NCBI GenBank assembly: GCA_008330645.1
Contig: VLTN01000127.1
Location: 1 to 23,455 of the forward strand
Direction: 5' to 3'
Length of the DNA: 23,455 bases
From: Cafeteria roenbergensis
Taxonomy: Eukaryota > Sar > Bigyra > Bicosoecida > Cafeteriaceae
Positions 8,987-23,455 of the stretch are shown here, one piece after another; the first letter of the stretch is position 1; each line of letters opens with the position of its first letter. Both the position numbers and the translations under genes were made by a program. The notes beneath the pieces were generated by a model that worked only from the letters and a program-made list of their open reading frames with translations, had not been told where the DNA came from and searched no databases.

Positions 8987-11900
8987 TCGCCGACAGCGTG
9001 TGGCCGTTGGACGTCGTGGAGGGCGAAGGGCGTCGCGACAGCGTGCCGTGACGTCGTTAGTGGCCAGAGCGTCGCCGACAGCGTGGCCGTGGACGTCGTG
9101 GAGGGCGAGGGCGTCGCCGACAGCGTGGCCGTGGACGTCGAGAGGGCGAGGGCGTCGGCCGACAGCGTGGCCGTGGACGTCGTGGAGGGCGAGGGCGTCG
9201 CCGACAGCGTGGCCCGCGGACTCGTGGAGGGCGAGGGCGTCGCCGACAGCGTGGCCGTGGACGTCGTGGAGGGCGAGGGCGTCGCCGACAGCGTGGCCGT
9301 GGACGTCGTGGAGGGCGACAGCGTGGCCGTGGACGTCGTGGAAGGCGAGGGCGTGGCCGACAGCGTGGCCGTGGACGTCGTGGAGGGCGAGGGCGTCGCC
9401 GACAGCGTGGCCGTGGACGTCGTGGAGGGCGAGGGCGTCGCCGACAGCGTGGCCGTGGACGTCGTGGAGGCGAGGGCGTGGCCGACAGCGTGGCCGTGGA
9501 CGTCGTGGAGGGCGAGGGCGTCGCCGACAGCGTGGCCGTGGACGTCGTGGAGGGCGAGGGGCGTCGCCGACAGCGTGGCCGTGGACGTCGTGGAGGGCGA
9601 GGGCGTCGCCGACAGCGTGCCGTGGACGTCGTGGAGGGCGAGGGCGTCGCCGACAGCGTGGCCGTGGACGTCGTGGAGGGCGAGGCGTCGCCGACAGCGT
9701 GGCCGTGGACGTCGTGGAGGGCGAGGGCGTCGCGACAGCGTGGCGGTGGACGTCGTGGAGGGCGAGGGCGTCGCCGACAGCGTGGCCGTGGACGTCGTGG
9801 AGGGCGAGGGCGTCGCCGACAGCGTGGCCGTGGACGTCGTGGAGGCAGAGGGCGTCGCCGACAGCGTGGCCGTGGACGTCGTGGAGGGCGAGGGCGTCGC
9901 CGACAGCGTGGCCGTGGACGTCGTGGAGGGCGAGGGCGTCGCCGACAGCGTGGCCGTGGACGTCGTGGAGGGCGAGGGCGTCGCCGACAGCGTGGCCGTG
10001 GACGTCCGTGGAGGGCGAGGGCGTCCCGCCGACAGCGTGGCCGTGGACGTCGTGGAGGGCGAGGGCGTCGCCGACAGCGTGGCCGTGGACGTCGTGGAGG
10101 GCGAGGGCGTCGCGACAGCGTGGCCGTGACGTCGTGGAGGGCGAGGGCGTCGCCGACAGCGTGGCCGTGGACGTCTGGAGGGCGACAGCGTCGCCGACAG
10201 CGTGGCCGTGGACGTCGTGAGGGCGAGGGCGTCGCCGACAGCGTGGCCGTGAACGTCGTGGAGGGCGAGGGCGTCGCCGACAGCGTGGCCGTGGACGTCG
10301 TGGAGGGCGAGGGCGTCGCCGACAGCGTGGCCGTGGACGTCGTGGAGGGCGAGGGCGTCGCCGACAGCGTGGCCGTGGACGTCGTGGAGGGCGAGGGCGT
10401 CGCCGACAGCGTGGCCGTGGACGTCGTGGAGGGCGAGGGCGTGGCCGTGGACGTCGTGGAGGGCGAGGGCGTCGCCGACAGCGTGGCCGTGGACGTCGTG
10501 GAGAGCGAGGGCGTCGCCGACAGCGTGGCCGTGGACGTCGTGGAGAGCGAGGGCGTCGCTGACAGCGTGGCCGCAGACGTCGTGGAGGGCGAGGGCGTCG
10601 CCGACAGCGTGGCCGTGGACGTCGTGGAGGGCGAGGGCGTCGCCGACAGCGTGGCCGTGGACGTCGTGGAGGGCGAGGGCGTCGCCGACAGCGTGGCCGT
10701 GGACGTCGTGGAGGGCGAGGGCGTCGCCGACAGCGTGGCCGTGGACGTCGTGGAGGGCGAGGGCGTCGCCGACAGCGTGGCCGCGGACGTCGTGGAGGGC
10801 GAGGGCGTCGCCGACAGCGTGGCCGTGGACGTCGTGGAGGGCGAGGGCGTCGCCGACAGCGTGGCCGTGGACGTCGTGGATGCCGTGGGCGTGGCCGACA
10901 GCGTGGCCGTGGACGTCGTGGAGGGCGAGGGCGTCGCCGACAGCGTGGCCGTGGACGTCGTGGAGGGCGAGGGCGTCGCCGACAGCGTGGCCGTGGACGT
11001 CGTGGAGGGCGACAGCGTCGCCGACAGCGTGGCCGTGGACGTCGTGGAGGGCGAGGGCGTCGCCGACAGCGTGGCCGTGGACGTCGTGGAGGGCGAGGGC
11101 GTCGCCGACAGCGTGCCGTGGACGTCGTGGCGGGCGAGGGCGTCGCCGACAGCGTGGCCGTGGACGTCGTGGATGCAGTGGGCGTCGCCGACAGCGTGGC
11201 CGTGGACGTCGTGGAGGCAGTGGGCGTCGCCGACAGCGTGGCCGTGGACGTCGTGGAGGGCGAGGGCGTCGCCGACAGCGTGGCCGTGGACGTCGTGGAT
11301 GCAGTGGGCGTCGCCGACAGCGTGGCGTGGACGTCGTGGATGCAGTGGGCGTCGCCGACAGCGTGGCCGTGGACGTCGTGGAGGGCGAGGGCGTCGCCGA
11401 CAGCGTGGCCGTGGACGTCGTGGAGGGCGAGGGCGTCGCCGACAGCGTGGCCGTGGACGTCGTGGAGGGCGAGGGCGTCGCCGACAGCGTGGCCGTGGAC
11501 GTCGTGGAGGGCGAGGGCGTGGCCGTGGACGTCGTGGAGGGCGAGGGCGTCGCCGACAGCGTGGCCGTGGACGTCGTGGAGGGCGAGGGCGTCGCCGACA
11601 GCGTGGCCGTGGACGTCGTGGAGGGCGAGGGCGTCGCCGACAGCGTGGCCGTGGACGTCGTGGAGGGCGCGGGCGTCGCCGACAGCGTGGCCGTGGACGT
11701 CGTGGAGGGCGAGGGGCGTCGCCGACAGCGTGGCCACGGACGTCGTGGAGGGCGACAGCGTCGCCGACAGCGTGGCCGCGGACGTCGTGGAGGGCGAGGG
11801 CGTCGCCGACAGCGTGGCCGTGGACGTCGTGGAGGGCGAGGGCGTCGCCGACAGCGTGGCCGTGGACGTCGTGGAGGGCGAGGGCGTGACCGACAGCGTG

Positions 11901-13704
11901 GCCGTGGACGTCGTGGAGGGCGAGGGCGTCGCCGACAGCGTGGCCGCGGACGTCGTGGAGGGCGAGGGCGTCGCCGACAGCGTGGCCGTGGACGTCGTGG
12001 AGAGAGCGAGGGCGTCGCCGACAGCGTGGCCGTGGACGTCGTGGAGGGCGAGGGCGTCGCCGACAGCGTGGCCGTGGACGTCGTGGAGGGCGAGGGCGTC
12101 GCCGACAGCGTGGCCGTGGACGTCGTAGAGAGCGAGGGCGTGACCGACAGCGTGGCCGTGGACGTCGTGGAGGGCGAGGGCGTCGCCGACAGCGTGGCTG
12201 CGGACGTCGTGGAGGGCAACAGCGTGGCCGTGGACGTCGTGGAGGGCGAGGGCGTCGCCGACAGCGTGGCCGCGGACGTCGTGGAGGGCGAGGGCGTCGC
12301 CGACAGCGTGGCCACGGACGTCGTGGAGGGCGAGGGCGTCGCCGACAGCGTGGCCGCGGACGTCGTGGAGGGCGAGGGCGTCGCCGACAGCGTGGCCGTG
12401 GACGTCGTGGAGGGCGAGGGCGTCGCCGACAGCGTGGCCGTGGACGTCGTGGAGGGCGAGGGCGTCGCCGACAGCGTGGCCGTGGACGTCGTGGAGGGCG
12501 AGGGCGTCGCCGACAGCGTGGCCGCGGACGTCGTGGAGGGCGAGGGCGTCGCCGACAGCGTGGCCGTGGACGTCGTGGAGGGCGAGGGCGTCGCCGACAG
12601 CGTGGCCGTGGACGTCGTGGAGGGCGAGGGCGTCGCCGACAGCGTGGCCGTGGACGTCGTGGAGGGCGAGGGCGTCGCCGACAGCGTGGCCGTGGACGTC
12701 GTGGAGGGCGAGGGCGTCGCCGACAGCGTGGCCGTGGACGTCGTGGAGGGCGAGGGCGTGGCCGACAGCGTGGCCGTGGACGTCGTGGAGGGCGAGGGCG
12801 TCGCCGACAGCGTGGCCGTGGACGTCGTGGAGGGCGAGGGCGTGGCCGACAGCGTGGCCGTGGACGTCGTGGAGGGCGAGGGCGTCGCCGACAGCGTGGC
12901 CGTGGACGTCGTGGAGGGCGAGGGCGTGGCCGACAGCGTGGCCGTGGACGTCGTGGAGAGCGAGGGCGTCGCCGACAGCGTGGCCGCGGACGTCGTGGAG
13001 GGCGAGGGCGTCGCCGACAGCGTGGCCGTGGACGTCGTGGAGGGCGAGGGCGTCGCCGACAGCGTGGCCGTGGACGTCGTGGAGGGCGACAGCGTGGCCG
13101 TGGACGTCGTGGAGGGCGAGGGCGTCGCCGACAGCGTGGCCGTGGACGTCGTGGAGGGCGAGGGCGTCGCCGACAGCGTGGCCGTGGACGTCGTGGAGGG
13201 CGAGGGCGTCGCCGACAGCGTGGCCGTGGACGTCGTGGAGGGCGAGGGCGTGGCCGACAGCGTGGCCGTGGACGTCGTGGAGGGCGAGGGCGTCGCCGAC
13301 AGCGTGGCCGTGGACGTCGTGGAGGGCGAGGGCGTCGCCGACAGCGTGGCCGTGGACGTCGTTGACGGCGCCGGCGTGGCAACCTGTGCTGACCTTGCGC
13401 GGCTTGTCATACTTTCCTGCTTCTGGCTGGTGTTTCTCTGTCTGCCCGTCCTTGGGTTTTGAGCCAGCTTTCCTTCGCCTTTGCGGTCGCTTTTTGTCCA
13501 ACGATTGTTCGTTCCTCTCTGCCTTTCCGTGCCTGTCATGGTTTTCGATTGAATCGACAACCAGCCCGCGACTCGGTTTTTCGGGACCCCCTGGCTCATT
13601 GCTGCTTGGCACCACTTGTCTTTCCGAGGGTTCACCTCCGTTCTGTCGCTGCCACGTACTGTCCACATTGTCCCCTTGATCATTGTCGCCCTTCGTGCTT
13701 GCAT
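1..13704 (-). CDS. Possible mucin-like Ser/Thr/Pro repeat protein, running off the left edge
   Basis: On the minus strand an ATG at 13704-13702 follows an in-frame TGA (13719-13717). It opens 108 codons of non-repeat sequence, rich in Lys, Arg, Gly and Thr (starts MQARRATMIKGTMW), with further in-frame ATGs at 13668, 13599, 13539 and 13410. The frame enters the array in register: the boundary reads VATPAPSTTSTATLS and then repeats TPSPSTTSTATLSA. It stays in that frame to 12007. Past the indels the reading changes frame but meets no stop before base 1. Ser/Thr/Pro/Ala repeats with all codons ending in G or C are typical of O-glycosylated surface or wall proteins. Against a gene: no signal peptide is visible, every frame in the array is open, and the leader may be chance. 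Variant units keep Ser/Thr (TPSPST to TPTAST), a mild point in favour. The real 5' end could be an upstream exon. Confidence 0.3.
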   Translation of the reverse strand, partial: MQARRATMIKGTMWTVRGSDRTEVNPRKDKWCQAAMSQGVPKNRVAGWLSIQSKTMTGTERQRGTNNRWTKSDRKGEGKLAQNPRTGRQRNTSQKQESMTSRARSAQVATPAPSTTSTATLSATPSPSTTSTATLSATPSPSTTSTATLSATPSPSTTSTATLSATPSPSTTSTATLSATPSPSTTSTATLSATPSPSTTSTATLSPSTTSTATLSATPSPSTTSTATLSATPSPSTTSAATLSATPSLSTTSTATLSATPSPSTTSTATLSATPSPSTTSTATLSATPSPSTTSTATLSATPSPSTTSTATLSATPSPSTTSTATLSATPSPSTTSTATLSATPSPSTTSTATLSATPSPSTTSTATLSATPSPSTTSTATLSATPSPSTTSAATLSATPSPSTTSTATLSATPSPSTTSTATLSATPSPSTTSTATLSATPSPSTTSAATLSATPSPSTTSVATLSATPSPSTTSAATLSATPSPSTTSTATLLPSTTSAATLSATPSPSTTSTATLSVTPSLSTTSTATLSATPSPSTTSTATLSATPSPSTTSTATLSATPSLSPRRPRPRCRRRPRPPRRPRPRCRRRPRPPRRPRPRCRSRPRPPRRPRPRCRRRPRPPRRPRPRCRRRPRPPRRPRPRCRRRCRPPRRPWPRCRRRPSPSTTSTATLSATPAPSTTSTATLSATPSPSTTSTATLSATPSPSTTSTATLSATPSPSTTSTATPSPSTTSTATLSATPSPSTTSTATLSATPSPSTTSTATLSATPSPSTTSTATLSATPTASTTSTPRCRRRPLHPRRPRPRCRRRPRPPRRPRPRCRRRPLPPRRPRPRCRRRPLHPRRPRPRCRRRPRPPRRPRHAVGDALALHDVHGHAVGDALALHDVHGHAVGDAVALHDVHGHAVGDALALHDVHGHAVGDALALHDVHGHAVGHAHGIHDVHGHAVGDALALHDVHGHAVGDALALHDVRGHAVGDALALHDVHGHAVGDALALHDVHGHAVGDALALHDVHGHAVGDALALHDVHGHAVGDALALHDVCGHAVSDALALHDVHGHAVGDALALHDVHGHAVGDALALHDVHGHALALHDVHGHAVGDALALHDVHGHAVGDALALHDVHGHAVGDALALHDVHGHAVGDALALHDVHGHAVGDALALTTSTATLSATLSPSRRPRPRCRRRPRPPRRHGHAVATPSPSTTSTATLSATPSPSTTSTATLSAGRPRPPRTSTATLSATPSPSTTSTATLSATPSPSTTSTATLSATPSPSTTSTATLSATPSASTTSTATLSATPSPSTTSTATLSATPSPSTTSTATLSRRPRPPRRPRPRCRRRLALHDVHGHAVGDALALHDVHGTLSATPSPSTTSTATLSATPLALHDVHGHAVGDALALHDVHGHAVGHALASTTSTATLSATPSPSTTSTATLSATPSPSTTSTATLSATPSPSTTSTATLSPSTTSTATLSATPSPSTTSTATLSATPSPSTSPRATLSATPSPSTTSTATLSADALALSTSTATLSATPSPSTTSTATLSATLWPLTTSRHAVATPFALHDVQRPHAVGDALALHDVHGHAVGDALALHDVHGHAVGDALALHDVHGHAVGDALALHDVHGHAVGDALALHDVHGHAVGDALALHDVHGHAVGDALAIHDVHGHAVGDALALHDVHGHAVGDALALHDVHGHAVGDALALHDVHGHAVGDALALHDVHGHAVGDALALHDVHGHAVGDALALHDVHGHAVGDALALHDVHGHAVGDALALHDVHGHAVGDALALHDVHGHAVGDALALHDVHGHAVGDALALHDVHGHAVGDALALHDVHGHAVGDALALHDVHGHAVGDALALHDVHGHAVGDALALHDVHGHAVGDALALHDVHGHAVGDALALHDVHGHAVGDALALHDVHGHAVGDALALHDVHGHAVGDALALHDVHGHAVGDALALHDVHGHAVGDALALHDVHGHAVGDSLALHDVHGHAVGDALALHDVHGHAVGDALALHDVHGHAVGDALALHDVHGHAVGDALALHDVHGHAVGDALALHDVHGHAVGDALALHDVHGHAVGDALALHDVHGHAVGDALALHDVHGHAVGDALALHDVHGHAVGDALALHDVHGHAVGDALALHDVHGHAVGDALALHDVHGHAVGDALALHDVHGHAVGDALALHDVHGHAVGDALALHDVHGHAVGDALALHDVHGHAVGDALALHDVHGHAVGDALALHDVHGHAVGDALALHDVHGHAVGDALALHDVHGHAVGDALALHDVHGHAVGDALALHDVHGHAVGDALALHDVHGHAVGDALALHDVHGHAVGDALALHDVHGHAVGDALALHDVHGHAVGDALALHDVHGHAVGDALALHDVHGHAVGDALALHDVHGHAVGDALALHDVHGHAVGDALALHDVHGHAVGDALALHDVHGHAVGDALALHDVHGHAVGDALALHDVHGHAVGDALALHDVHGHAVGDALALHDVHGHAVGDALALHDVHGHAVGDALALHDVHGHAVGDALALHDVHGHAVGDALALHDVHGHAVGDALALHDVHGHAVGDALALHDVHGHAVGDALALHDVHGHAVGDALALHDVHGHAVGDALALHDVHGHAVGDALALHDVHGHAVGDALALHDVHGHSVGDALALHDVHGHAVGDALALHDVHGHAVGDAHALHDVHGHAVGDALALHDVHGHAVGDALALHDVRGHALGDALALHDVHGHAVGDALALHDVHGHAVGDALALHDVHGHAVGDALALHDVHGHAVGDALALHDVHGHAVGDALALHDVHGHAVGDALALHDVHGHAVGDALALHDVHGHAVGDALALHDVHGHAVGDALALHDVHGHAVGDALALHDVHGHAVGDALALHDVHGHAVGDALALHDVHGHAVGDALALHDVHGHAVGDALALHDVHGHAVGDALALHDVHGHAVGDALALHDVHGHAVGDALALHDVHGHAVGDALALHDVHGHAVGDALALHDVHGHAVGDALALHDVHGHAVGDALALHDVHGHAVGDALALHDVHGHAVGDALALPDAHGHAVGDALALHDVHGHAVGDALALHDVHGHAVGDALALHDVHGHAVGDALALHDVHGHAVGDALALHDVHGHAVGDALALHDVHGHAVGDALALHDVHGHAVGDALALHDVHGHAVGDALALHDVHGHAVGDALALHDVHGHAVGDALALHDVHGHAVGDALALHDVHGHAVGDALALHDVHGHAVGDALALHDVHGHAVGDALALHDVHGHAVGDALALHDVHGHAVGDALALHDVHGHAVGDALALHDVHGHAVGDALALHDVHGHAVGDALALHDVHGHAVGDALALHDVHGHAVGDALALHDVHGHAVGDALALHDVHGHAVGDALALHDVHGHAVGDALALHDVHGHAVGDALALHDVHGHAVGDALALHDVHGHAVGDALALHDVHGHAVGDALALHDVHGHAVGDALALHDVHGHAVGDALALHDVHGHAVGDALALHDVHGHAVGDALALHDVHGHAVGDALALHDVHGHAVGDALALHDVHGHAVGDALALHDVHGHAVGDALALHDVHGHAVGDALALHDVHGHAVGDALALHDVHGHAVGDALALHDVHGHAVGDALALHDVHGHAVGDALALHDVHGHAVGDALALHDVHGHAVGDALALHDVHGHAVGDALALHDVHGHAVGDALALHDVHGHAVGDALALHDVHGHAVGDALALHDVHGHAVGDALALHDVHGHAVGDALALHDVHGHAVGDALALHDVHGHAVGDALALHDVHGHAVGDALALHDVHGHAVGDALALHDVHGHAVGDALALHDVHGHAVGDALALHDVHGHAVGDALALHDVHGHAVGDALALHDVHGHAVGDALALHDVHGHAVGDALALHDVHGHAVGDALALHDVHGHAVGDALALHDVHGHAVGDALALHDVHGHAVGDALALHDVHGHAVGDALALHDVHGHAVGDALALHDVHGHAVGDALALHDVHGHAVGDALALHDVHGHAVGDALALHDVHGHAVGDALALHDVHGHAVGDALALHDVHGHAVGDALALHDVHGHAVGDALALHDVHGHAVGDALALHDVHGHAVGDALALHDVHGHAVGDALALHDVHGHAVGDALALHDVHGHAVGDALALHDVHGHAVGDALALHDVHGHAVGDALALHDVHGHAVGDALALHDVHGHAVGDALALHDVHGHAVGDALALHDVHGHAVGDALALHDVHGHAVGDALALHDVHGHAVGDALALHDVHGHAVGDALALRRPRPRCRRRPRPPRRPRPRCRRRPRPPRRPRPRCRRRPRPPRRPRPRCRRRPRPPRRPRPRCRRRPRPPRRPRPRCRRRPRSPRRPRPRCRRRPRPPRRPRPRCRRRPRPPRRPRPRCRRRPRPPRRPRPRCRRRPRPPRRPRPRCRRRPRPPRRPRPRCRRRPRPPRRPRPRCRRRPRPPRRPRPRCRRRPRPPRRPRPRCRRRPRPPRRPRPRCRRRPRPPRRPRPRCRRRPRPPRRPRPRCRRRPRPPRRPRPRCRRRPRPPRRPRPRCRRRPRPPRRPRPRCRRRPRPPRRPRPRCRR
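8987..10230. repeat. Indel-rich patch of the 42-bp array
   Basis: Starting at 9001 the units suddenly carry many 1-2 bp gains and losses, for example around 9001-9060, 9140-9165, 9215-9225, 9470, 9560, 9620, 9685, 9733, 10007, 10025, 10112-10130, 10175 and 10218. The preceding 9 kb holds a single indel. One change creates the only plus-strand TTA (9057-9059) in the array. Most are homopolymer or near-homopolymer length changes. This looks like raw long-read error at an assembly join rather than biology. Confidence 0.85.
10231..13379. repeat. Diversified right flank of the 42-bp array
   Basis: Units keep the 42-bp length but carry recurrent sequence variants. These are GTG to GCG (plus-frame V to A), GTC to GTG, GGC to AGC, a GATGCAGTGGGC block (near 11171, 11297, 11339, with relatives near 10878 and 11213), and GACAGC replacing GAGGGC. 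Several units are exactly 12 bp short (near 10440, 11519, 12217, 13087). A few indels shift the frame (near 11115, 11325, 11714 and a 2-bp gain at 12001-12006). From 12007 to 13379 there is no frame-shifting indel. Greater divergence at an array edge is expected when exchange homogenises mainly the interior. Confidence 0.9.
12007..13462 (+). CDS. Alternative plus-strand reading: acidic 14-residue repeat with hydrophobic C-terminal tail
   Basis: In the plus frame reading VADSVAVDVVEGEG, the last 33 or so units are uninterrupted. They lead into DGAGVATCADLAR, then LVILSCFWLVFLCLPVLGF and TGA at 13460-13462. The tail is long enough for one membrane span or a GPI-type signal. No start codon or N-terminal domain can be assigned because the array leaves the window and shifts frame at 12001. 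The sequence right of the array is pyrimidine-rich on this strand, and T-rich DNA tends to encode Leu, Phe, Val and Cys, so the tail may be chance. This frame and the minus-strand Ser/Thr frame share their third codon positions, so synonymous changes cannot tell them apart. At most one of the two is likely to be a gene. Confidence 0.2.
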
Positions 13705-14610
13705 GCTCCAGCCCGCTCAGCATGCCTGGCTCCGAAGCCTTCAAACTTTTTTTATGGACAGGAGGCTGCGCGTGGCTGCCCGGGCCGCTCGGCCCATGCA
13801 CAAGTTCGTGGGGGGGAGTCATGGTTCCAGCCTCTGGCATCTCGCCCTGCCGGTTTCTGGTCGCCAAGGCAATCGCCTCCTTCCTGCCAGATTTTGGCGC
13901 CTGCGATTCATGGCGCGGGATGGCACAGCCCACGGGGATTGCAGCATCACAGCTTGCGTACGTGAACCGCGTTCATCGGCTGGAGCCCACGCAGCCATGG
14001 CTCACCGAGTTTTCGTGGCCACGTGCGCTGGCAGAAATCGACATTGCCACGCAAAGGCCCAGCACGAGAGGCACCCGAAAACAGACTCCACATGCTGAGG
14101 GGCCAACTCCTCCCGTCAGGCGTGTGCCCCGTTGCAACGGAGCTCGGCTTCGGCCGACTCGGTGTGCCCTCGGACAGCCCCCCAACATGCACGAGCCCTT
14201 GTGCTTGCCTTGCTGCGGCCCCACTTCGAGCGCCACGAGCATGGCTCCGGCGGCGGTGGCCTCGCGCTGGACAGACGCACCACGGTCCGGGCTCCGGGCC
14301 GGGCGGGCCCCGAACCGGCCGCGCTCGAAGGCGTTCAGCTGCGTGCGCGGCAACGCCTGCGTGCAGTGGAAATTACGTTGCCGATCGCCTATGCTGCCCG
14401 TCCCGGTTACCAGAGACGACCGAGAGAGGCAGTTCGCGAACCCTGCGCGATGGGGTTGCTGGTGTCGCGCTGTTCGGTCTTGCAAGCGAGCGGGTGGAGT
14501 GTTTGAAGAGGCTGGGGTAGTGCCTTGAGGGTTCGCCTTGCTCTGTTGGCGCAACGATGCCGGGCTGATTCCCACTCCAGCCCATCAAGAACACGAGCAG
14601 AGCGCTGACC
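13463..14610. other. Spacer with no recognisable gene
   Basis: The first 250 bases are pyrimidine-rich on the plus strand and less GC-rich than the rest. Several overlapping open frames exist on both strands, the longest about 280 codons on plus at 13683-14528. None shows a family motif, a regular domain pattern or a convincing start. I see no tRNA, rRNA or terminator-like structure. It may hold untranslated regions or exons that I cannot identify. Confidence 0.6.
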
Positions 14611-15015
14611 TCAAAAAAGACCTCCTTGCGACTCCCCCGAGAGAGCTGCCGTGACGTTAAAGTGGACCCGCGGGAGGGTTGAGCCGGCGTACTGCGGGGT
14701 CACCTCGCCAGCAGCGGTGATCACGCAAGTTTGCCCGGTGGCCAGCTTTACCGCACAAGGGGCAAACGCAGGCGCGGTCCGCTGGCTCATCGTCACGTTG
14801 AATCTGACCACCGTGCTAGATCGCGGCATCAGATTCGTCTCCCCGGGCAAATTCACGTTGCCCAGGTACCCACCCGACGCAGCATCCGTCAGGTTAACTG
14901 CGAGCTCGTTGAAGCCCATGTCGAGGTAGCTGAAGCTCTGAAACTTGATAAACAAGTGTAGGTACACCTCAAAATCGCCGGTCGACGGATTGTAGCCCGC
15001 GGAGTTCGCGGTCAT
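14611..15015 (-). CDS. Putative LEA-2/WHy-like domain protein, 5' part unresolved
   Basis: The frame from ATG 15015-15013 to TGA 14613-14611 gives 134 residues. Alternating hydrophobic strands such as DFEVYLHLFIKFQSFSYLDM, ELAVNLTDAASGGYLGNVNL and SSTVVRFNVTMS, separated by turns and preceded by YNPSTGD, resemble the beta-sandwich of LEA-2/WHy proteins. In that family an NP motif precedes a strand and a small-G loop is common. Three N-glycosylation sequons (NLT, NVT, NVT) suggest a lumenal or extracellular location. Just upstream on the same strand another frame encodes a hydrophobic stretch, QILVVLGSFAAAFFP (about 15093-15049). It could be the missing membrane anchor, joined by an intron or displaced by an indel. 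The family call is by eye only, and the protein may belong elsewhere. It is transcribed away from NAF1. Confidence 0.45.
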   Translation of the reverse strand: MTANSAGYNPSTGDFEVYLHLFIKFQSFSYLDMGFNELAVNLTDAASGGYLGNVNLPGETNLMPRSSTVVRFNVTMSQRTAPAFAPCAVKLATGQTCVITAAGEVTPQYAGSTLPRVHFNVTAALSGESQGGLF

Positions 15016-15973
15016 GCGTTCAGTTGCGACGCAAGGCTCTCGTGGTATCAGGGAAGAAGGCCGCCGCGAACGAGCCCAGCACCACAAGTATCTGCGAGGC
15101 CAAAGCGGGCAAGCGTCTCAGCCGCCGCCCCCCCCCGGTAAACTGGATTTGGACGGCTGCCTTGGGCGCGCGCCATTGCAGGCCGCCGCTCGGCGCTCCG
15201 GTGCGCGAGCATGGCAGCCGCTCTCACAATGCCGAGCATGGAAAAGAAGATGCACAGCACCGTCCGCGTGCATGCGCAGCAGCAGGACGCCGACGTTTTT
15301 GCCGAGCCTCCATCTTCCGCACTGGTATGAACTGCTCGCCCTGGCATTTCAGACGCTTCCGGGCTTTGCTTCTGGGGCAGGGGAGTGCGTGAACGATGCA
15401 ACGGCTGCTGCCAGAAACGGCTTGCTCTGTTCCGGTGGGCACGCGCCAACTGCCCAGGCCTGCGCTGCCACGAGCGGGCCGACGGCTGTTGCTGTGACTC
15501 TGTGTTGCAATGAAAGGTCGGTTCCGGCCACCCGCGCGTGTCCAACGCTTGCGTCATCCTGAGCGGACGGTTGCCAGAGACACAAGGAATTGAAGCGCTG
15601 AAGCTGTGCTCCTGTGTCCCTCTGAGCCGGCCGGAATTCCGAGACCTGCCGTTGAGCAAAGCCTCTGCGAGCTCTTGGGAAGGCGATCCCGACCCCCTTA
15701 GCGCCCGCCACCTCCCAAGCTTGGGTCCTGGGCTCCGGGCGCTCGGGCGGCGACGCGCTGGTCTGCACGAACGGAGCGCTCGGCTCAGCGGAGCGGCCCT
15801 GGATGACGTCATGCGGTGCTCTGCGGGCTTGCACCCTTTTCGGCGACTTGTGCGCCAGCAGCCCACGCCCTGGCCAGCCCGGTGCGACGCACAGGGCGCC
15901 TTTCACGTTTCGGAGCTCTCTTTCCGATACCTGCAAGTTGGTCCACGCAAGTAGAATTTCGCGGGCCGCGGAA
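15016..15973. other. Divergent spacer between the LEA-2-like gene and NAF1
   Basis: About 950 bases lie upstream of both flanking genes. A minus-strand open frame (15866-15048) carries a Cys-rich hydrophobic run, CCCACTRTVLCIFFSMLGIV (about 15290-15230). That could be a 5' exon of the minus-strand gene, but it lacks clear splice signals or family motifs. A run of nine C lies at 15128-15136. The promoters of both genes probably sit here; I see no TATA box. Confidence 0.5.
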
Positions 15974-18074
15974 ATGGCGGCGGCCGATGCTTCGGCGTTC
16001 GCTGACTACGCCTCCTCGGACAGCGAGGACGAGCGCGTCGGAGTGCGGGACGTCAATGCAGCGCATCTTGCCGCATCCCATTGCCCTTCCACTTTTGGCG
16101 CTGGGGCGGAAGGCGAGGACCTCCCTTCCCACGCCGGCGACGACCTGGCCATTGCTGCAGCCGCCGCAGCCGCTGATCGCTCGACCTTCGCTCCCCTGCG
16201 TGGGGGTCTGCCGGCCGCACATGAAGCGGGCCTCTGCGACAAGCAGGCTGCGGAGCCCAGAGCCGGGGGGCGGCCTTTCTTTGTGCAGGTCGAGCGCTCC
16301 GAGAGCGGCGAAAGCGACGGCGGCTCGACTTCCGACGCTGGCAGCAGCGATGGCGATGACGACAGCGATGGGGACGGCGACAGCGAAGGAGATGGCGAAC
16401 ATGGAGCCACAAGCCCAGGCGCCGCGCGTGGACGAGTCTCCGCCTCGGGGGGACGGAGCGGCTGCTCCCGGCCGGTTGCGGCCGAAGACGACGACGACGA
16501 GGCGCTCGGTGGGGCCGCAGGCCGCCTGCTGGCCACCCCGGCGCTGGCTCGGACCAAGAACGAAGCCAGCCCAGCCAGCGCGCTCGTGGGGGCGTCACCA
16601 GCTTCTGGCGGTGGATCTGCAGTTGGCGAAGGCGCTCCGCTCCTCGACCCAGCGGACTTGCAGGGCGCTCAACTCTGTCCGGCCGGCTCGGTCCTCCACG
16701 TGTCCACTGCCGAGGGCGTGGCCGTGGTCCAGGGCGAGCACGTGGCAGAGCGGCGCGCGGTGCCCAGCGGGTCGCACTTGGTGTCGGGGCTTGCCCCGCT
16801 TGCTGCACGTGCGCTGGACGAGGGGTCAGTCCTCTTGTCCAGGGATGGGCGCCTTGTTGGGAGAGTGGCCGAGGTGTTTGGCCCGGTGGACGCCCCAATG
16901 TATGTGGTGGCGCTCGCTGTAGCGGCGGGGATCGATTGCCGCCGCGAGTCGACACCGCTGCGGACAGCGGCAGCACTGGCGTTCCCGATGACGCGCCCGG
17001 TGCGGCCAGCAGCAGCAGCGACGGTGTCCGTGTGCACGCTGAGGCGAGCGAGCCGGGTTCGGGTGCCGCAGCTTCTTCGGAGGTCGGACCCATGCCTTGC
17101 CCTGAGGCTGGCGAGCACAGCTATGGGGTGGGCCAGGCGGCTGCAGACGTACACTCGGGCTCGGCTTCGGCAGTCCTGCCGGCTCGCGGGGAAGTGTTGT
17201 TTTTCGCGCTGGGAGCCCCAGTCGCTGCTGCCCGATTCGTTCGCCCGGAGCTGTGCATGGTCCGAGGCTCAGACGCCTCCAATGTGCACGACGAGGAGCC
17301 GCTTGCGGACGACGACGAAGACTTCTCCGATGACGAAAAGGAGGCGGCGGCCAAGAGAGCGCGTCGCCGCCGGCCGGGTGGCGCCGTGCCCAGCGACCTA
17401 GCCGCCGCCGCCGGAGCAGCGGGGGCCGCCCCCCCAGCTGAGCAGCGCTCGCAGCGGGGCGCAGGCCGGGCCGAGCGCGGCGACCGAGGGGCGGCCCACG
17501 CCGCCGGGCCGGCCGCTGGCAGGGGCCGAGGCCGCGGCCAGCCTGCAGGCGGGCAGTATCAGCGCTCGCAAGCCCGTCCAGGCGGCCCTCATGGACCGCG
17601 CGCCGTGGCGGCTGGCGGCTGGGCCCCGGCGCCGTGGCACCCTGGCGTCACCGGGTTTGCGCCCCCGCGGCCGTGGCAGGCGCCGCCGCCCGGGTGGCAC
17701 GCAGGCCATCCCGGCCAGCACCACGCAGGCCATCCCGGCCAGCACCACGCAGGCCATCCCGGCCAGCACCACGCAGGCCATCCCGGCCAGCACCACGCAG
17801 GCCATCCCGGCCAGCACACGCAGGCCATCCCGGCCAGCACCACGCAGGCCATCCCGGCCAGCACCACGCAGGCCATCCCGGCCAGCACCATGGCCCCGCT
17901 CACCTGCAGGGCTTCGGGGGGCCGCCCGCGCACGGGTTCGGCGCGCCCGCGCGCGGGTTCGGCGCAGCCCCCCCGCCGGGCCCAGGCTTCGGCGGCCCTC
18001 CGCCTGTGCCTGGGTCCACGTGGACGTTCACGCCTTCGGGGTGGGTGCAGGTTCCGCCGCCGTCGGCCAAGTAG
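15974..18074 (+). CDS. NAF1: H/ACA ribonucleoprotein assembly factor NAF1, with two frame breaks
   Basis: NAF1 is a nuclear factor that binds dyskerin/Cbf5 during assembly of box H/ACA snoRNPs and is later replaced by GAR1. The start ATG (15974, context GGAAATGG) opens an N-terminal part with an acidic Asp/Ser/Gly run (about residues 109-146). The core domain shows LDEGSVLLSRDGRLVGRV followed by EVFGPVDAPMYVV (about residues 279-312), the hallmark of the GAR1/NAF1 beta-barrel. A later frame gives GEVLFFALGAP and then RGSDASNVHDEEP and DFSDDEKEAAAKRARR (17190-17370), the conserved NAF1 C-terminal block. The tail is Gly/Pro/Arg-rich with an eight-copy HAGHPGQH repeat and ends SGWVQVPPPSAK, TAG at 18072. 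The frame changes between about 16912 and 16945 (missing base or an intron), and again at 17818 where one C is missing. The intact product would be about 700 residues. Unknown: whether 16936-17170 is coding or intron. Confidence 0.85.
17698..17888 (+). repeat. Eight-copy 24-bp repeat (HAGHPGQH) inside NAF1
   Basis: Eight head-to-tail copies of a 24-bp unit encode HAGHPGQH, a His/Gly/Pro low-complexity stretch in the NAF1 tail. The sixth copy (from 17818) is 23 bp because one C of a CACCAC junction is missing. This throws the reading frame into TQAIPAST. Adding one base to that copy keeps the frame open into the Gly/Pro-rich end and the stop at 18072. Short identical copies favour slippage in vivo and base-calling error in vitro. 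Confidence 0.95.
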
Positions 18075-18324
18075 GGCGCGGCATAGCTTGGCCGACGGAG
18101 GCCTGCTCGCGCACGCATCTGGAAATGGCCGGTGCGTGGACGTGCGGCGCGAGTGTTGCGAGGTTTGAGCGGCGCGATGAGTGTGAGCATCGGCTCGAAG
18201 CGAGCGAGGGTTCGGGGCCCGGGCAAGGCAGCCTCGCGCGCACACAGCCGCCCCTGACGCGCACGGACACGACGTTTGCCCGCGAGCTCGACGCAGCGGG
18301 CAACCCTGCTCGGCGTGCACGCGC

Positions 18325-19144
18325 CTACTCCTCGAACTCGGCAAAGGCCAGGAGGGCGGTCAGGCCGGCGCTGCCATAAAGGATGCCCCACGCGGACGAG
18401 GTGATGGTGGGCTGGTCGAAGCCCCAAAGGCTGTCCCAAGCAAGGTGCCTGATGCCGCCGAGGAAGTGGAAGGTCAGCGGGAACGCGATGGCGGCCTTCA
18501 CCAGGGGCTTGAGGAGCATGGACTCCTGCACCACCATGAATGCAGACTCGGCCTGTGCGCCGGTGGCCATGAGCGCGATGGCGCCAGCCGCCGTACCTGC
18601 GGAAACAGCAAACACGTCGAACGAACGGTACAGAGGGCTCGCCACCATGCGGCCACGAGGGCCAAGCAGGGTGCTGCTGGCTGGCTGGCACCACGCCAAC
18701 TGCGGTGACGCCAGGCAATATGCGCACCGGGCCTCGCTCAGGCGCCCGGGCGAGCCGCCCGAGACGTGGCCGGCTCGCTCGCAGAGGGAACTGTGCTGCC
18801 CTATCGCGAGGAAGCCACGCGCGCGGCTGGAGCAGGGGCGCTTGGCCACGCGGAAGGCGTCGATCGCTTCCTGCTTCGCCTCGCAAGTGCTTCGCCGCCG
18901 GCCGGTCCCAGCCTGCTCACCGAACGGTCATGGCGATGCCGGTGCCGCGGAAGGTGGTGGAGCTGATCATGTTCGGCGTGAACTTGTAAATGGTGAGGTG
19001 GGGGGACAGGGGGCGCTTGGAGGCGGCCGAGGAGGCCTCCCGCAGGGGCTGGGCAGCGGCCGCGGCGCGAGCCAAGACGCCACCCTGAGCAGCGGCTGCC
19101 TGGGCAGCCGCGCGGGCGACGGACGAGCCACGAGCGAGCGCCAT
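18325..19144 (-). CDS. SDHC: Succinate dehydrogenase cytochrome b large subunit (SDHC), two exons
   Basis: This is a mitochondrial complex II membrane anchor that helps bind heme b and ubiquinone. Exon 1 (19144-18921) starts MALARGSSVARAAAQ, an Ala/Arg presequence, then RPLSPHLTIYKFTPNMISS and TTFRGTGIAM, the family's N-terminal signature with the quinone-site Ser and Arg. The intron (18920-18597) begins GTGAGC and ends TTTCCGCAG. Exon 2 (18596-18325) carries the helices and FHFLGGIRHLAWD, which holds the heme-ligand His, and ends LLAFAEFEE, TAG. Spliced length is about 164 residues, near the family norm. The junction as written is one base too long (496 nt). If one T near 18924 in exon 1 is extra, the protein reads GIAMTVGTAAGAIAL, which aligns well with the family. 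It shares a short upstream region with SDHD and converges with NAF1. Confidence 0.9.
18597..18920 (-). other. SDHC intron
   Basis: The donor GTGAGC (18920-18915) and the acceptor TTTGCTGTTTCCGCAG (ending 18597) are textbook GT-AG sites with a pyrimidine tract. The 8-mer ACCGTTCG occurs both just before the donor and about 30 bases before the acceptor. It is probably chance, but worth comparing with other introns of this genome because some protist introns are bounded by short direct repeats. Confidence 0.85.
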
Positions 19145-19349
19145 CGTTCTCGGAGCCTGGTCCTGCGAAAGTGGGCCAGCAAGGCGGGCCGCACGCACGC
19201 GCGAGCACGCTGGGGCCAGCCGCGCAGATTCGTCGCTCTGCAAGGCCGCGGCTGATCGACGCGAGCATCGATTGCGGCGAGGTCCCGCGTCCCCGCCCCA
19301 GCCTGGCCCCGCGGCGGCCCACACCAGCCTGCGGCCGGACCGGGAAACC
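19145..19349. promoter_or_regulatory. Bidirectional promoter region between SDHC and SDHD
   Basis: Only 205 bases separate the ATG of SDHC (minus) from that of SDHD (plus), so the two membrane anchors of one complex probably share control elements. The region is GC-rich, has no TATA box, contains a GC-box-like CCCCGCCCC (about 19290-19300) and an ATCGAT palindrome near 19267. Transcription start sites cannot be placed from sequence. Confidence 0.6.
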
Positions 19350-20277
19350 ATGGCCTTTTCGCGCACGTCCGCTGTCGCCAAGCGTGCTTCGGCCGTTGCG
19401 GCCACGGGTGAGTCGGCGCGGCGAGAGCGAGAGCGTCCGACTGTGGGAGCAAGTGCATGCGCGCGCGCGCGCGCGCTCCCCCCACCGCGCCTCCTCCTGG
19501 CGCGGCAGTCCCGCGAGGCGCCCCGGCCAAGTTTGACGCCAGCCATGCGCGCCAAGCGGCGCGACTTGGGCGTGCCGGCCATTTTGGAGGACGCTCTTGC
19601 GCGCGTGAGCACGCCGCTTCGCAAGCGCTCGCTATCCGCCGCGCACTGTGCCTTCCACTCCCCGCAACGGGTGCCGCCCGCAGTGTCCTACCGCGCGGCT
19701 GTGCGCGACTTCGGCACCTCGGCTGCCAAGGCGGCCTCCAGCAAGTACGGCGACCGTGAGCACGTTCGCAGGCGGCCGTGGTCAGGCGCCGCCCCAGCAG
19801 GGCAGCCCAGGCCCTCGCCGAAGCAGCGGCGGGCCTTGCCGCTCGCGCTCTCGCGCCGCACGCCCACCATCGCAAGTTTCTGAGGTGCTGTCGTGACCCT
19901 GGGCCGCAGTGATCCTTGACGTGCTCCCCCGGGCGTCGTCGGTGCGCAACGTGCACCACATCACCGCTTACGGCCTGGCCATCGGAGTGCCCATGGCCCT
20001 GGCCAGCAGCGGCTCCATGACCACCGCCTTGGACCTTGCCATGGGCATTGTTGTGCCCCTCCACTTCCACATCGGCATGCGCTCGGTGATGGTGGACTAC
20101 CTCGTGCACTTGGGGATCACGGACCGCTCGTTCCAGCAGATGGCCATCTACGGCCTCGGCGCCATGACGCTGGTCACGGCCATCGCCCTGACCCGCTTCA
20201 ACATCGAGGACATGGGCATCACCGCAGCCGTGCGTCGCCCCTGGATCAAGAAGCGCGTGGTGAAGGAGGAGGAGTGA
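19350..20277 (+). CDS. SDHD: Succinate dehydrogenase cytochrome b small subunit (SDHD), three exons
   Basis: This is the second membrane anchor of mitochondrial complex II. The exons are 19350-19407, 19684-19755 and 19910-20277. Both donors read GTGAGY, acceptors are CCGCCCGCAG and GGGCCGCAG, and all junctions keep frame, giving 165 residues. The N-terminus MAFSRTSAVAKRASAV is a mitochondrial presequence. Three hydrophobic helices follow (about residues 61-76, 84-108 and 118-139). HFHIGMRSVMVDY (95-107) matches the family motif with the heme-ligand His and the quinone-site Asp-Tyr pair, and FNIEDMGITAAV (140-151) aligns with the family's FNxxDxGI ending. A charged tail, KKRVVKEEE, ends the protein. 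No frame break is seen. It lies head to head with SDHC and 282 bases upstream of SDHB on the same strand. Confidence 0.92.
19453..19476. repeat. Alternating purine-pyrimidine tract in SDHD intron 1
   Basis: Twenty-four bases alternate perfectly between purine and pyrimidine, nine of the steps being consecutive GC pairs. Such tracts can adopt Z-DNA under negative supercoiling. It lies 45 bases inside the first intron of SDHD, close to the divergent promoter. Confidence 0.9.
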
Positions 20278-20559
20278 TTCTCATGCGTGCACTGCGCTGC
20301 CGCGTTTGCAGCCGCCAAAGTCCTTGCGGCTGCGCCCCCGCCGCGCCCCACACCTTGCACCGCCGCCTCCTGCGCACGCAACAGGCGCCTTAGTTCGCGC
20401 CCCGGGGCCATCCGCCCGCTCGGCTTGCGGCCGCCCGCGCGACGCGGCCAGCAGGGCGCTCGTCGAGCCAAAGCCCAAGGCGAGCCTGGCAAAGCTCTGA
20501 CCTAACCCGCTCTCGCCGCGCCTCGTCGGATTCGTGGTTTGCACCCGCCCGCGCGAGAA
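20278..20559. other. SDHD-SDHB spacer
   Basis: This 282-base GC-rich spacer separates two genes on the same strand. It should hold the SDHD polyadenylation region and the SDHB promoter. I see no TATA box, clear poly(A) signal or RNA gene. It is too short to contain SDHA, which sits between sdhD and sdhB in bacterial operons. Confidence 0.6.
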
Positions 20560-22084
20560 ATGGCAGTGGCAGCTCGCTTCGCAGGAGTGACGGCCCGCGC
20601 CGCGGCTGCGGCTTCGCGCGCCCACGCCTGTGCGCGCCCTCGCGTCGGCGGCAGTGGACCAGAAGTTGGACGCCAAGGACTCGGTGAGCGAATGGCTGGC
20701 GTTCGACATCGCCGAGCCCCCTCGCCTTGCCGGCCCGCCTGACGTACGCGCCCTCGCCCCGCGCCCGCCGCGCGCGCCTGCCCCGCCTTACATGAGGAGG
20801 GGGGCCCCCGGGCGCTCGCTGCCACGCGGAGCCGCCCCGGCCCGCCCGCCTTGGCATCTGGCTGCGGCCCGGCGACGCCTCGCGGGCACGGGGCGGCAGA
20901 GGCCAGCCTTCGCGGGCCTCGCGGTGGCTCCGCGCCGCGGCTCCTTGGCCACGGATGCGTGAAAGCCGTCGCGAGGATCGATGCTGCTGGTGCTTTGGGA
21001 GTGGGGCTCGGCGGAGCGCTTGCGCGCGCGGCAAGGCACGGGCTCCGCCTTCCTCGCGCTGGGTTGCGAGGCTGCGTGTCCCGGCAGTCCACGGCCGCTG
21101 CGAGGACCAAGGATTCCACGGGCAGCCGCGCGTGCGCTGCGACGCAGCGCTGCCCTGCGGCAGGGATTCTGGGGCCGATGCGGCGCCGTGTTTTTGTTCG
21201 GTGGGCGTAGGGGGGGGGGGAGAATGGGAGAGTCGGTCTCGCCTGTGCCAGATGAGATGCGATCGCTGCCTCCTCACCCTTTTTGTGCCCCCGTCCCAAC
21301 TGCGCGCGCTTTGGCCGCCCCCGCATGGGTGCACGCAGTCGATCACCTACTTCAAGATCTACCGCTGGGACCCGGACACCCCGGAGCAGCCCCGCACCTG
21401 ATGACCTACCCATCGACCGCTCCGAGTGCGGGCCGATGGTGCTGGACGCCCTCATTCAAGATCAAGACGAGCAGGACCCGACCCTCACCTTCCGCCGCTC
21501 GTGCCGCGAAGGCATCTGCGGCTCTTGCGCCATGAACCTGAACGGCACCAACGGCCGCTGCCTGCCCTCTCCTCATCCCGGACGGACACCAACACCGTGA
21601 CGTCCACCCCCTGCCCCTACCGCATGAGGCGTCATCAAGGACTTCGTGCTCGGACATGACCAACTTCCTACAAGGCAGAAGTACTCCTTCCAGATCAGCC
21701 CTGGCCCTGCAGCGCTTTTGCGACGACGCCGCGAGCGCCAACACGGAGCACCTCCAGTCGTGGAAGGCGACCGACCGCAAGCTCAGATGGCATTGTACGA
21801 GTGCATCCTCTGCGCCTGCTGACTCCCACCTGCGTGCCGTCCGTACTGGTGTGGGAAAGGCGAGAAGTAACCTCGCGGGCCCCGGCTGTCTCATGCCAGG
21901 CCTACGCTGGGTGTCGGACAGGCCGCGACCACATGAAGAAGGAGCGCCTCGCCGCCCTCGACGACGAGTTCTCCCTCTACCGCTGCCATCAGATCATGAA
22001 CTGCTCCCGCGTGTGCCCCAAGGGCCTCAACCCCGCCCGCGCCATCGCGAAGCTCATGAAGGAGATGACCAGGCGTACGCCTGA
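20560..22084 (+). CDS. SDHB: Succinate dehydrogenase iron-sulfur subunit (SDHB), broken by many small indels
   Basis: SDHB carries electrons from SDHA to ubiquinone through three iron-sulfur clusters. Exon 1 (ATG 20560, presequence [18 protein letters not shown]) ends DQKLDAKDS at 20683, before donor GTGAGC. The intron reaches 21338 and contains an 11-G run. Exon 2 starts [17 protein letters not shown]. Then come [33 protein letters not shown] (2Fe-2S ligands), YECILCACC (about 21796-21821) and [20 protein letters not shown] (about 21975-22033, ligands of the later clusters). These blocks lie in different frames. I infer indels near 20630, 21388, 21411, 21455/21466 (compensating +1/-1), 21565, 21630 and 21652, with dense damage at 21825-21935 where the family's PSYWW and LMQAYRW region should be. 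The stop is at 22084 or, in another frame, 22142. It is either poorly polished sequence or a young pseudogene; conserved residues between breaks favour the first. Confidence 0.85.
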
Positions 22085-22496
22085 GCGCGTTCACCGCCCC
22101 CCCCCCCCTCCCCCCTCGCACAGTTCGCACCTTGCCGGGTGAGGGCGCGCGCTGCCGTCGACGCCGTCCGAGGAGCAGCCCTTCCACGCCAGCGCGCTCT
22201 TCGCCCCCGTGCGCTGTCTCTGGTGCCGGTGCCCTGTGCGAGAGTGTCCCGGCCTCGGCCCGGCCGCGCGACGCGCGAGCCGAATGTGCACTCCCTTGCA
22301 CCGGACGCCGCCGCACTGCGTTTGCACACACGCACACTCGCGCACGCCCGCTCGCACGCGCGCGCGGCGCGGTATCGCGGGCCACTGGAGGGCGCAGCCT
22401 CGGAACAGCAGCAGGGAGGGGGGGCCGCTGCCCCTCCCGCTTCCGGTCGGACCGCTGGCCAGCGGGCTCGCACGAGCCCCTGCCCGCCGGCGGGCC
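22085..22496. other. Convergent spacer between SDHB and dapB
   Basis: The 3' ends of SDHB and dapB face each other here. A run of 12 C at 22097-22108, then T and 6 C, is followed by TCGCACAG. That would make a strong acceptor if SDHB had a further exon, though none is evident. A stretch near 22323-22370 is rich in CA and CG dinucleotides. I recognise no gene or terminator. Confidence 0.55.
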
Positions 22497-23363
22497 TCAG
22501 ACCGACGCGCGGCCGCCGAAGAGCACGTCGTCCATGGTGTACCACCCGCCTCCCTTCTCGCCAGCCACTTGGCCGCTCTGAGCGCCCCCGCTGCGAACAC
22601 ATCGCGGCTCTGTGCCCGGTGGGTCAGCTCGATGCGCTCAAAGTCAGAGGAAAAGTGCGCCGTGTGGTCGCCAACCACGCTCCCCATGCGCAGCGAGTGC
22701 ATGCCGATCTCCCGGGGCGTTCGCTTGCACGAGGGTCCCTCGCGGCCGCACCGCAGGTCCTTGGCCACGTCGCGATCCAGCGCCCCCGCGATGGCCCGCG
22801 CCAGGCCAAGCGCGGTGCCGGACGGGGCGTCAACCTTGCGGTTGTGGTGCGCCTCCACCACCTCGATGTCAAAGCCCTCCCCCAGCGCAGTTGCCACCTC
22901 GCCCGCGATGCGGCACAGCAGGTTCACGCCCAGGCTGAAGTTGCGCCACCAGCACGGGGACCTTGTCAGAGAGCTTGCGAAGCACGCCCATGTCAGCATC
23001 GGTCAGACCTGTGGTGCCGATGACCAGGCCGATGCCGAGCTCGGCGGCCGCGGTTGCCTGTTCGACGCACGCTGCCGGCGTGGAAAAGTCCACCAACACG
23101 GTCGGCCCCGAACCCAGGCCCCTTGACGTCGCGCGCACGTCCAAGCTTGAAGCCTCTGGCGCGAGTTTCCCGACGGGCTCGCCGTCCGAGGAGCTGCCGC
23201 GGGACACAAGCGCGTGGGTCACTCGCAGCCCGCTGTCCGCAGCCGACAACGCCAGGAGGCGCCGACCCACGCGCCCGGAAGCCCCGCTGATCGCGATCGC
23301 CACCGGGGTTGGCGCAGGCTCGCCAGCTCCCGATTTCGCAGCAGCCGCTCCCGAGTCCGCCAT
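22497..23363 (-). CDS. dapB: 4-hydroxy-tetrahydrodipicolinate reductase (DapB), two frame breaks
   Basis: DapB reduces the dihydrodipicolinate precursor with NAD(P)H, the second step of the diaminopimelate route to lysine. ATG 23363 is the first after an in-frame stop (23417-23415). The nucleotide-binding motif GASGRVGR is at residues 27-34, DFSTP at 92-96 and GTTGL at 116-120. EAHHNRKVDAPSGTA (about residue 171) holds the catalytic His and Lys, then IGMHSLRMGSVVGDHT and RAQSRDVFAAGALRAAKWL. The end WYTMDDVLFGG matches family C-termini, TGA at 22497. The frame breaks near 22952 (after VLVA, where NFSLGVNLL continues in another frame) and near 22557 (after KWLA). Together they amount to about three missing bases, giving 289 residues against roughly 270 for bacterial enzymes. 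There is a 20-residue Ala/Gly/Pro N-terminal extension and no clear plastid transit peptide. No intron is seen. This is the bacterial-type family. Confidence 0.92.
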
Positions 23364-23455
23364 CCTCGCAGTCCCGCGCCAGTGGTGCCGCTGGCCACGG
23401 TCTTGCCCTCCAACTATGGTTGAACCTGACAGAGCCCATCGGCCAATTCCTGCAG

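Follow-up and report, generated by a model that had tools for sequence, protein, structure and literature searches.

In nuclear genomes the genes for the subunits of a respiratory complex normally lie scattered, so a cluster of complex II genes offers a natural way to test whether these genes enter the nucleus in blocks, and also whether neighbours stay together to balance subunit supply. Known nuclear arrangements in eukaryotes include divergent (head-to-head) gene pairs as well as clusters of non-homologous genes with a common function, for example GAL and DAL of yeasts. Here we describe three adjacent complex II genes, SDHC, SDHD and SDHB, in the bicosoecid Cafeteria roenbergensis (assembly GCA_008330645.1), a heterotrophic flagellate and tiny predator of the sea. 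The window analysed is the whole of contig VLTN01000127.1 (23,455 bp), referred to below as C127.

Comparable sets are described from mitochondrial DNA. The mitochondrial DNA of Andalucia carries sdh2-4, with sdh1 (SDHA) in the nucleus (PMC7050145), and that of Moramonas also carries sdh2-4 (PMC4772810). Cryptophyte mitochondrial DNA has an sdh3-sdh4 block, disrupted in one lineage (PMC5910586), and in a red alga mitochondrial genome sdh2 and sdh3 are adjacent with sdh4 apart (PMC12189398). All sdh genes had been lost from the stramenopile mitochondrial genomes in one comparison (PMC9551565). No report of a nuclear SDH gene cluster was found among the titles and abstract openings listed by searches of open-licence literature, and the available portions of PMC10749196, PMC4256733, PMC4772810, PMC10809612 and PMC7700475 hold nothing on nuclear linkage of SDH genes.

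Three adjacent complex II genes

Of the four nuclear genes for complex II subunits, three are directly adjacent in the window, with spacers of 205 and 282 bp. SDHC and SDHD are divergent, with 205 bp between their start codons, and SDHB follows SDHD on the same strand. A near-identical second locus with the same three-gene arrangement is found on another contig, C73 (C73:10883-14605). The features of the cluster are as follows, in window coordinates.

18325-19144, minus strand: SDHC gene (gene model)
18325..18596 (C73:10883-11154), minus strand: SDHC exon 2 with the HFLGGIRHLAWD segment (Pfam Sdh_cyt, 1e-9, in the open reading frame (ORF) 18325-18597; gene model)
18921..19144 (C73:11480-11702), minus strand: SDHC exon 1, presequence-like N-terminus (RPLSPH aligns with vertebrate-type SDHC chains)
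19145..19349, no strand: divergent SDHC/SDHD spacer, 205 bp from ATG to ATG, candidate bidirectional promoter
19350-20277, plus strand: SDHD gene (gene model)
19350..19407 (C73:11908-11965), plus strand: SDHD exon 1 (gene model)
19684..19755 (C73:12240-12311), plus strand: SDHD exon 2 (gene model)
19910..20277 (C73:12466-12833), plus strand: SDHD exon 3, CybS domain with the LHFHIGMRSVMVDY segment (Pfam CybS, 5.6e-15)
20278..20559, no strand: spacer from SDHD stop to SDHB start, 282 bp in both copies
20560-22084, plus strand: SDHB gene (gene model)
20560..20683 (C73:13116-13238), plus strand: SDHB exon 1, presequence-like N-terminus (gene model)
21339..22084 (C73:13889-14605), plus strand: SDHB exon 2, 2Fe-2S and 4Fe-4S families (frame intact in C73)

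We read the locus, with moderate confidence, as a true clustering of three complex II genes in the nucleus, with a probable divergent promoter and a probable matched supply of the membrane anchors. The gene arrangement, real and unusual, is a single case from a protist that has received little study, and its function is putative; for specialists it would be curious, not upsetting.

The gene models on C73 comprise two exons for SDHC (164 amino acids), three for SDHD (165 amino acids) and two for SDHB (279 amino acids), all joined by GT-AG introns. In Pfam, the C73 proteins matched PF01127 (SDHC, 2.1e-20), PF05328 (SDHD, 9.7e-15) and PF13085 (SDHB, 1.3e-32), the last together with 4Fe-4S families. 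NCBIfam matches above the cut-off were TIGR02970 for SDHC and NF004616 and TIGR00384 for SDHB; SDHD had no NCBIfam match. The RPLSPH and GIRHLxWD segments of SDHC align with SDHC chains from the PDB, and the alignment of SDHD to PDB SDHD chains, weak with a best E-value of 6.6e-5, includes the DY pair. No aspartate or glutamate was seen by eye in the first 25 residues of any of the three proteins, and their N-termini look presequence-like.

The sequence-only reading of the window had placed the three genes at the coordinates listed, and both the sequence and the gene models agree with it. Its description of a three-gene cluster with SDHC flipped and SDHA absent also holds, SDHA lying on contig C39, and the 205 bp it gave for the SDHC/SDHD promoter matches the ATG-to-ATG gap. 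The nuclear location it had argued from introns and presequences is borne out by the GT-AG introns in all three genes, by the absence of acidic residues from the N-termini and by the grouping of SDHB with mitochondrial SDHBs (support 0.994; see below).

Assembled copies, copy number and neighbours

C127 is a redundant contig that duplicates the start of C73 (168,566 bp): in the best alignment, window positions 7381-23455 match the first 15,978 bases of C73. Over window 13300-23455 the two contigs differ by 59 indels and 28 substitutions, which are unevenly spread. The SDHB exon 2 region alone (window 21334-22085, 752 bp) holds 32 indels and 16 substitutions; 27 of these indels involve no more than two bases, and in 23 it is the window that has the additional bases. 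The 1,370 bp downstream of SDHB exon 2 have three indels and no substitutions, the 205-bp SDHC-SDHD spacer is identical in both contigs, and the SDHD exons differ by one substitution. A single additional base in the window is found in SDHC exon 1, close to its end, and another in SDHB exon 1. The window SDHB is not an intact frame; on C73 the frames of all three genes are complete. Because of these complete frames, the damage to the C127 SDHB is read as probable sequencing error, in the form of uncorrected long-read error in a redundant contig. The assembly of C. roenbergensis strain BVI (now also called C. burkhardae), most likely the strain analysed here, was made from PacBio reads with Canu and included a step to remove allelic contigs, and the authors broke contigs where coverage dropped (PMC6972860).

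Profile searches covered the whole assembly (36,303,456 bp, 167 contigs) in six frames, exon by exon. SDHB, SDHC and SDHD profiles matched only on C73 and C127, and SDHA had one match, on C39, outside the cluster; none of its neighbours there (four ORFs) belongs to a complex II family. The trio is thus single-copy, going by the assembly. An unlinked copy in missing sequence is possible, given this search design and a possibly incomplete assembly; the BUSCO score reported for strain BVI is 83.2% (PMC6972860). The sequence-only reading had named two results that would refute it: an intact set of unlinked copies elsewhere, of which these searches found none, and reads showing a chimeric contig, which is unlikely, the cluster being present also on the 168.6 kb contig C73.

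In C127 the order of elements is a 42-bp minisatellite, a Gar1/Naf1-like gene, SDHC (minus strand), SDHD (plus), SDHB (plus) and a dihydrodipicolinate reductase gene (minus), with a guanine plus cytosine (GC) content of 63-76% across window 13001-23000 in 1-kb steps; for the strain BVI assembly 70.1% GC is reported (PMC6972860). Two neighbours lie outside the cluster.

15656..18072 (limits by eye, more than one ORF), plus strand: Gar1/Naf1-like (Pfam Gar1, 7e-8, in ORF 15656-17401)
22521..23362 (limits by eye), minus strand: DapB, dihydrodipicolinate reductase (DapB_C, 8.3e-40, in ORF 22091-23002)

The ORF 16360-18072, which overlaps the Gar1-matching ORF, had no Pfam match. A 24-bp repeat is present eight times at 17698-17890, in the C-terminal part of the Gar1/Naf1-like region; upstream of it, at 16350 and 16399, the gene differs from C73 by lengths of 18 and 48 bases, which could be allelic. 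The minisatellite occupies window 1-13377 (about 320 copies, 97% matches, GC about 76%) with a strong GC skew and several open frames. It also makes up the first 6 kb or so of C73, and it probably broke the assembly at C127.

Origin and regulation of the cluster

The ancestry of SDHB was assessed with a FastTree phylogeny of 82 sequences: 79 bacterial ones (80 of 126 loci were kept and one was then dropped), two PDB chains and the C73 protein. The C73 SDHB joins the two mitochondrial SDHBs from the PDB (support 0.994), apart from the 79 bacterial sequences. Identity alone would mislead, because it reaches 68% with bacterial sequences and is 66-67% with the two mitochondrial chains. The bacterial SDHB nearest the three mitochondrial ones (support 0.899) comes from a contig labelled as a Legionellales metagenome-assembled genome (PBJS01000023.1, 1350-4969; L063), which by eye carries sdhC-D-A-B and then a short sdhE-like ORF. 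As its SDHB groups with alphaproteobacterial and mitochondrial SDHBs, the label may be wrong. L063 was also considered as stray mitochondrial DNA with the ancestral sdh order; this was rejected, the stretch being bacterial by eye.

Of three IMG/VR loci, L106 and L107 served for the tree alone. The third, L105 (IMGVR_UViG_3300035703_001958), encodes a eukaryote-like SDHB at 5001-5752, the match being split in two between different frames. The contig looks virus-like by eye, with ubiquitin and helicase-like ORFs and about 18-24% GC; no further sdh ORF was seen by eye in the 10.7 kb fetched. In a tree including it, its SDHB falls just outside Cafeteria, 1yq3 and 9kpt, and support for that inner clade is 0.036, so this tree does not separate the Cafeteria SDHB from that of the viral contig. 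With viral membership in mind, the introns and neighbouring genes of the Cafeteria trio look nuclear. As to the host, the sequence-only reading had pointed to "related algal genomes"; this is doubtful, as the organism is a bicosoecid without plastids (PMC6972860) and a search of the assembly for the light-harvesting family PF00504 gave no match. For the latter reason an algal source is thought unlikely.

On our preferred reading, SDHC, SDHD and SDHB would each be a spliced nuclear gene of the ordinary kind, encoding a protein with a putative mitochondrial targeting sequence of its own. The anatomy of the locus suggests that a single bidirectional promoter in the 205-bp spacer probably drives both SDHC and SDHD, and SDHB, downstream of SDHD, would be driven by its own promoter within the 282-bp spacer. 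The three proteins would be imported separately and then assembled with SDHA encoded on another contig. Most likely, the effect would be to match the supply of one membrane anchor to that of the other, SDHB sharing their chromatin neighbourhood. The shared promoter and the coordinated supply are both inferences from this anatomy. The cluster itself most likely arose by nuclear rearrangement and may have been retained because the genes work together.

Several points weigh against this reading. Coordinated supply would want SDHA in the cluster, and SDHA is outside it. The 205-bp and 282-bp spacers share no excess of 8-, 9- or 10-mers over resampled sequence: 12, 2 and 1 words were shared against means of 10.1, 3.7 and 1.3, and 175, 373 and 280 of 500 resamplings, respectively, reached the observed number. 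A common regulatory word in both spacers was dropped as a candidate for this reason. C73 and C127 were probably assembled from shared reads and so do not count as fully independent. Only two control gene sets were examined, and drift could explain a single cluster noticed post hoc in one species.

For 7,857-8,483 genes, the range over four strains (PMC6972860), the chance of finding any three out of four specified genes in a row is 3.9e-7 to 3.3e-7. This figure was computed after the fact; if 1,000 comparable gene sets are supposed, about 4e-4 such cases would be expected. As controls, we located two further groups of genes that are operon partners in bacteria. The cytochrome c1 match is on C3, where none of the five Rieske-domain matches is found (the complex III member among the five was not singled out). 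The NADH_4Fe-4S family, which we take to be NDUFV1, lies on C19, and 2Fe-2S_thioredx, presumably NDUFV2, on C90. Judged by these two sets, other operon partners are not kept adjacent in this genome, and linkage across contig ends is possible. One of the five Rieske-domain matches is on C73, at 91 kb.

A neutral neighbourhood, in which rearrangement brought the genes together and drift or short distance keeps them there without regulatory meaning, would account for the lack of excess shared words, for SDHA being elsewhere and for the identified neighbours, none of which is a complex II gene (DapB, the Gar1/Naf1-like gene and, further along C73, DAP3-like and ELO). The chance of adjacency, about 3e-7, and the two control sets on different contigs speak against it; adjacency by chance is unlikely, and we regard the neutral account as possible, though on the unlikely side. 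The nuclear trio corresponds to the sdh2-3-4 set of some mitochondrial genomes, which makes a block transfer thinkable: the trio would be a relic of one move of sdh2-sdh3-sdh4 from mitochondrial DNA to the nucleus, followed by gain of introns and presequences and by inversion of SDHC. It exactly matches the set in the gene-rich mitochondrial DNA of Andalucia, where sdh1 is nuclear (PMC7050145); adjacent pairs are known (sdh2-sdh3 in a red alga, PMC12189398; sdh3-sdh4 in cryptophytes, PMC5910586), and stramenopiles had no mitochondrial sdh genes in one comparison (PMC9551565). Such a relic would require adjacency to persist since the loss from stramenopile mitochondrial DNA; moreover, the orientation of SDHC is not conserved, the red alga sdh4 lies apart (PMC12189398) and one cryptophyte lineage has lost the integrity of its block (PMC5910586). 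We consider it improbable. The fuller version, a fossil of a single sdh2-sdh3-sdh4 transfer in the stramenopile lineage, kept since because of a divergent SDHC/SDHD promoter with SDHB expressed as part of the unit, is one we hold to be quite doubtful.

Block acquisition from a giant virus or bacteria is hardly credible. Cafeteria is host to a giant virus (PMC6972860), giant viruses can carry SDH, as Prymnesium kappa virus RF01 does with all four subunits (PMC9270025), L105 has its eukaryote-like SDHB, and the bacterial contig L063 shows sdhC-D-A-B by eye. Introns, presequences and high GC, the placement of SDHB with two mitochondrial SDHBs outside the 79 bacterial sequences, and the lack of a second SDHB, SDHC or SDHD in the assembly that could be the original mitochondrial-type gene all oppose it. 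Bacterial contamination or recent bacterial transfer is rejected by the introns, the GC content and the SDHB tree. An assembly chimera, making the adjacency artefactual, is likewise unlikely, indeed very much so: the badly damaged SDHB region of the window contig and its start in a long tandem array would fit one, yet the 168.6 kb contig C73 has the same arrangement with intact genes, and the authors split contigs at coverage drops (PMC6972860).

Comparison with known systems

The sequence-only reading had likened the gene order to that of the bacterial sdhCDAB operon. The two share the SDHC, SDHD and SDHB families and an SDHD-then-SDHB order in like orientation, and this part of the likeness stands. 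The one-strand C-D-A-B order is absent from the Cafeteria locus, where SDHC is inverted and SDHA lies on C39, so the overall likeness is weak. Because SDHC is inverted, it has no common sense transcript with SDHD and SDHB. Introns, spacers of 205 and 282 bp and presequence-like N-termini further set the locus apart from the operon.

The sdh2, sdh3 and sdh4 genes in the mitochondrial DNA of jakobids, red algae and cryptophytes represent the same three subunits (two in cryptophytes), with SDHA apart and some pairs adjacent, whereas the Cafeteria trio is nuclear, spliced and GC-rich and differs in orientation. With head-to-head nuclear gene pairs the locus shares two genes diverging from about 200 bp; here, however, both partners belong to one complex, a third gene of that complex lies next to them, and the promoter is a candidate. 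Like the GAL and DAL clusters, it brings together adjoining non-homologous genes of one function, but that function is a housekeeping respiratory complex rather than a catabolic or secondary pathway.

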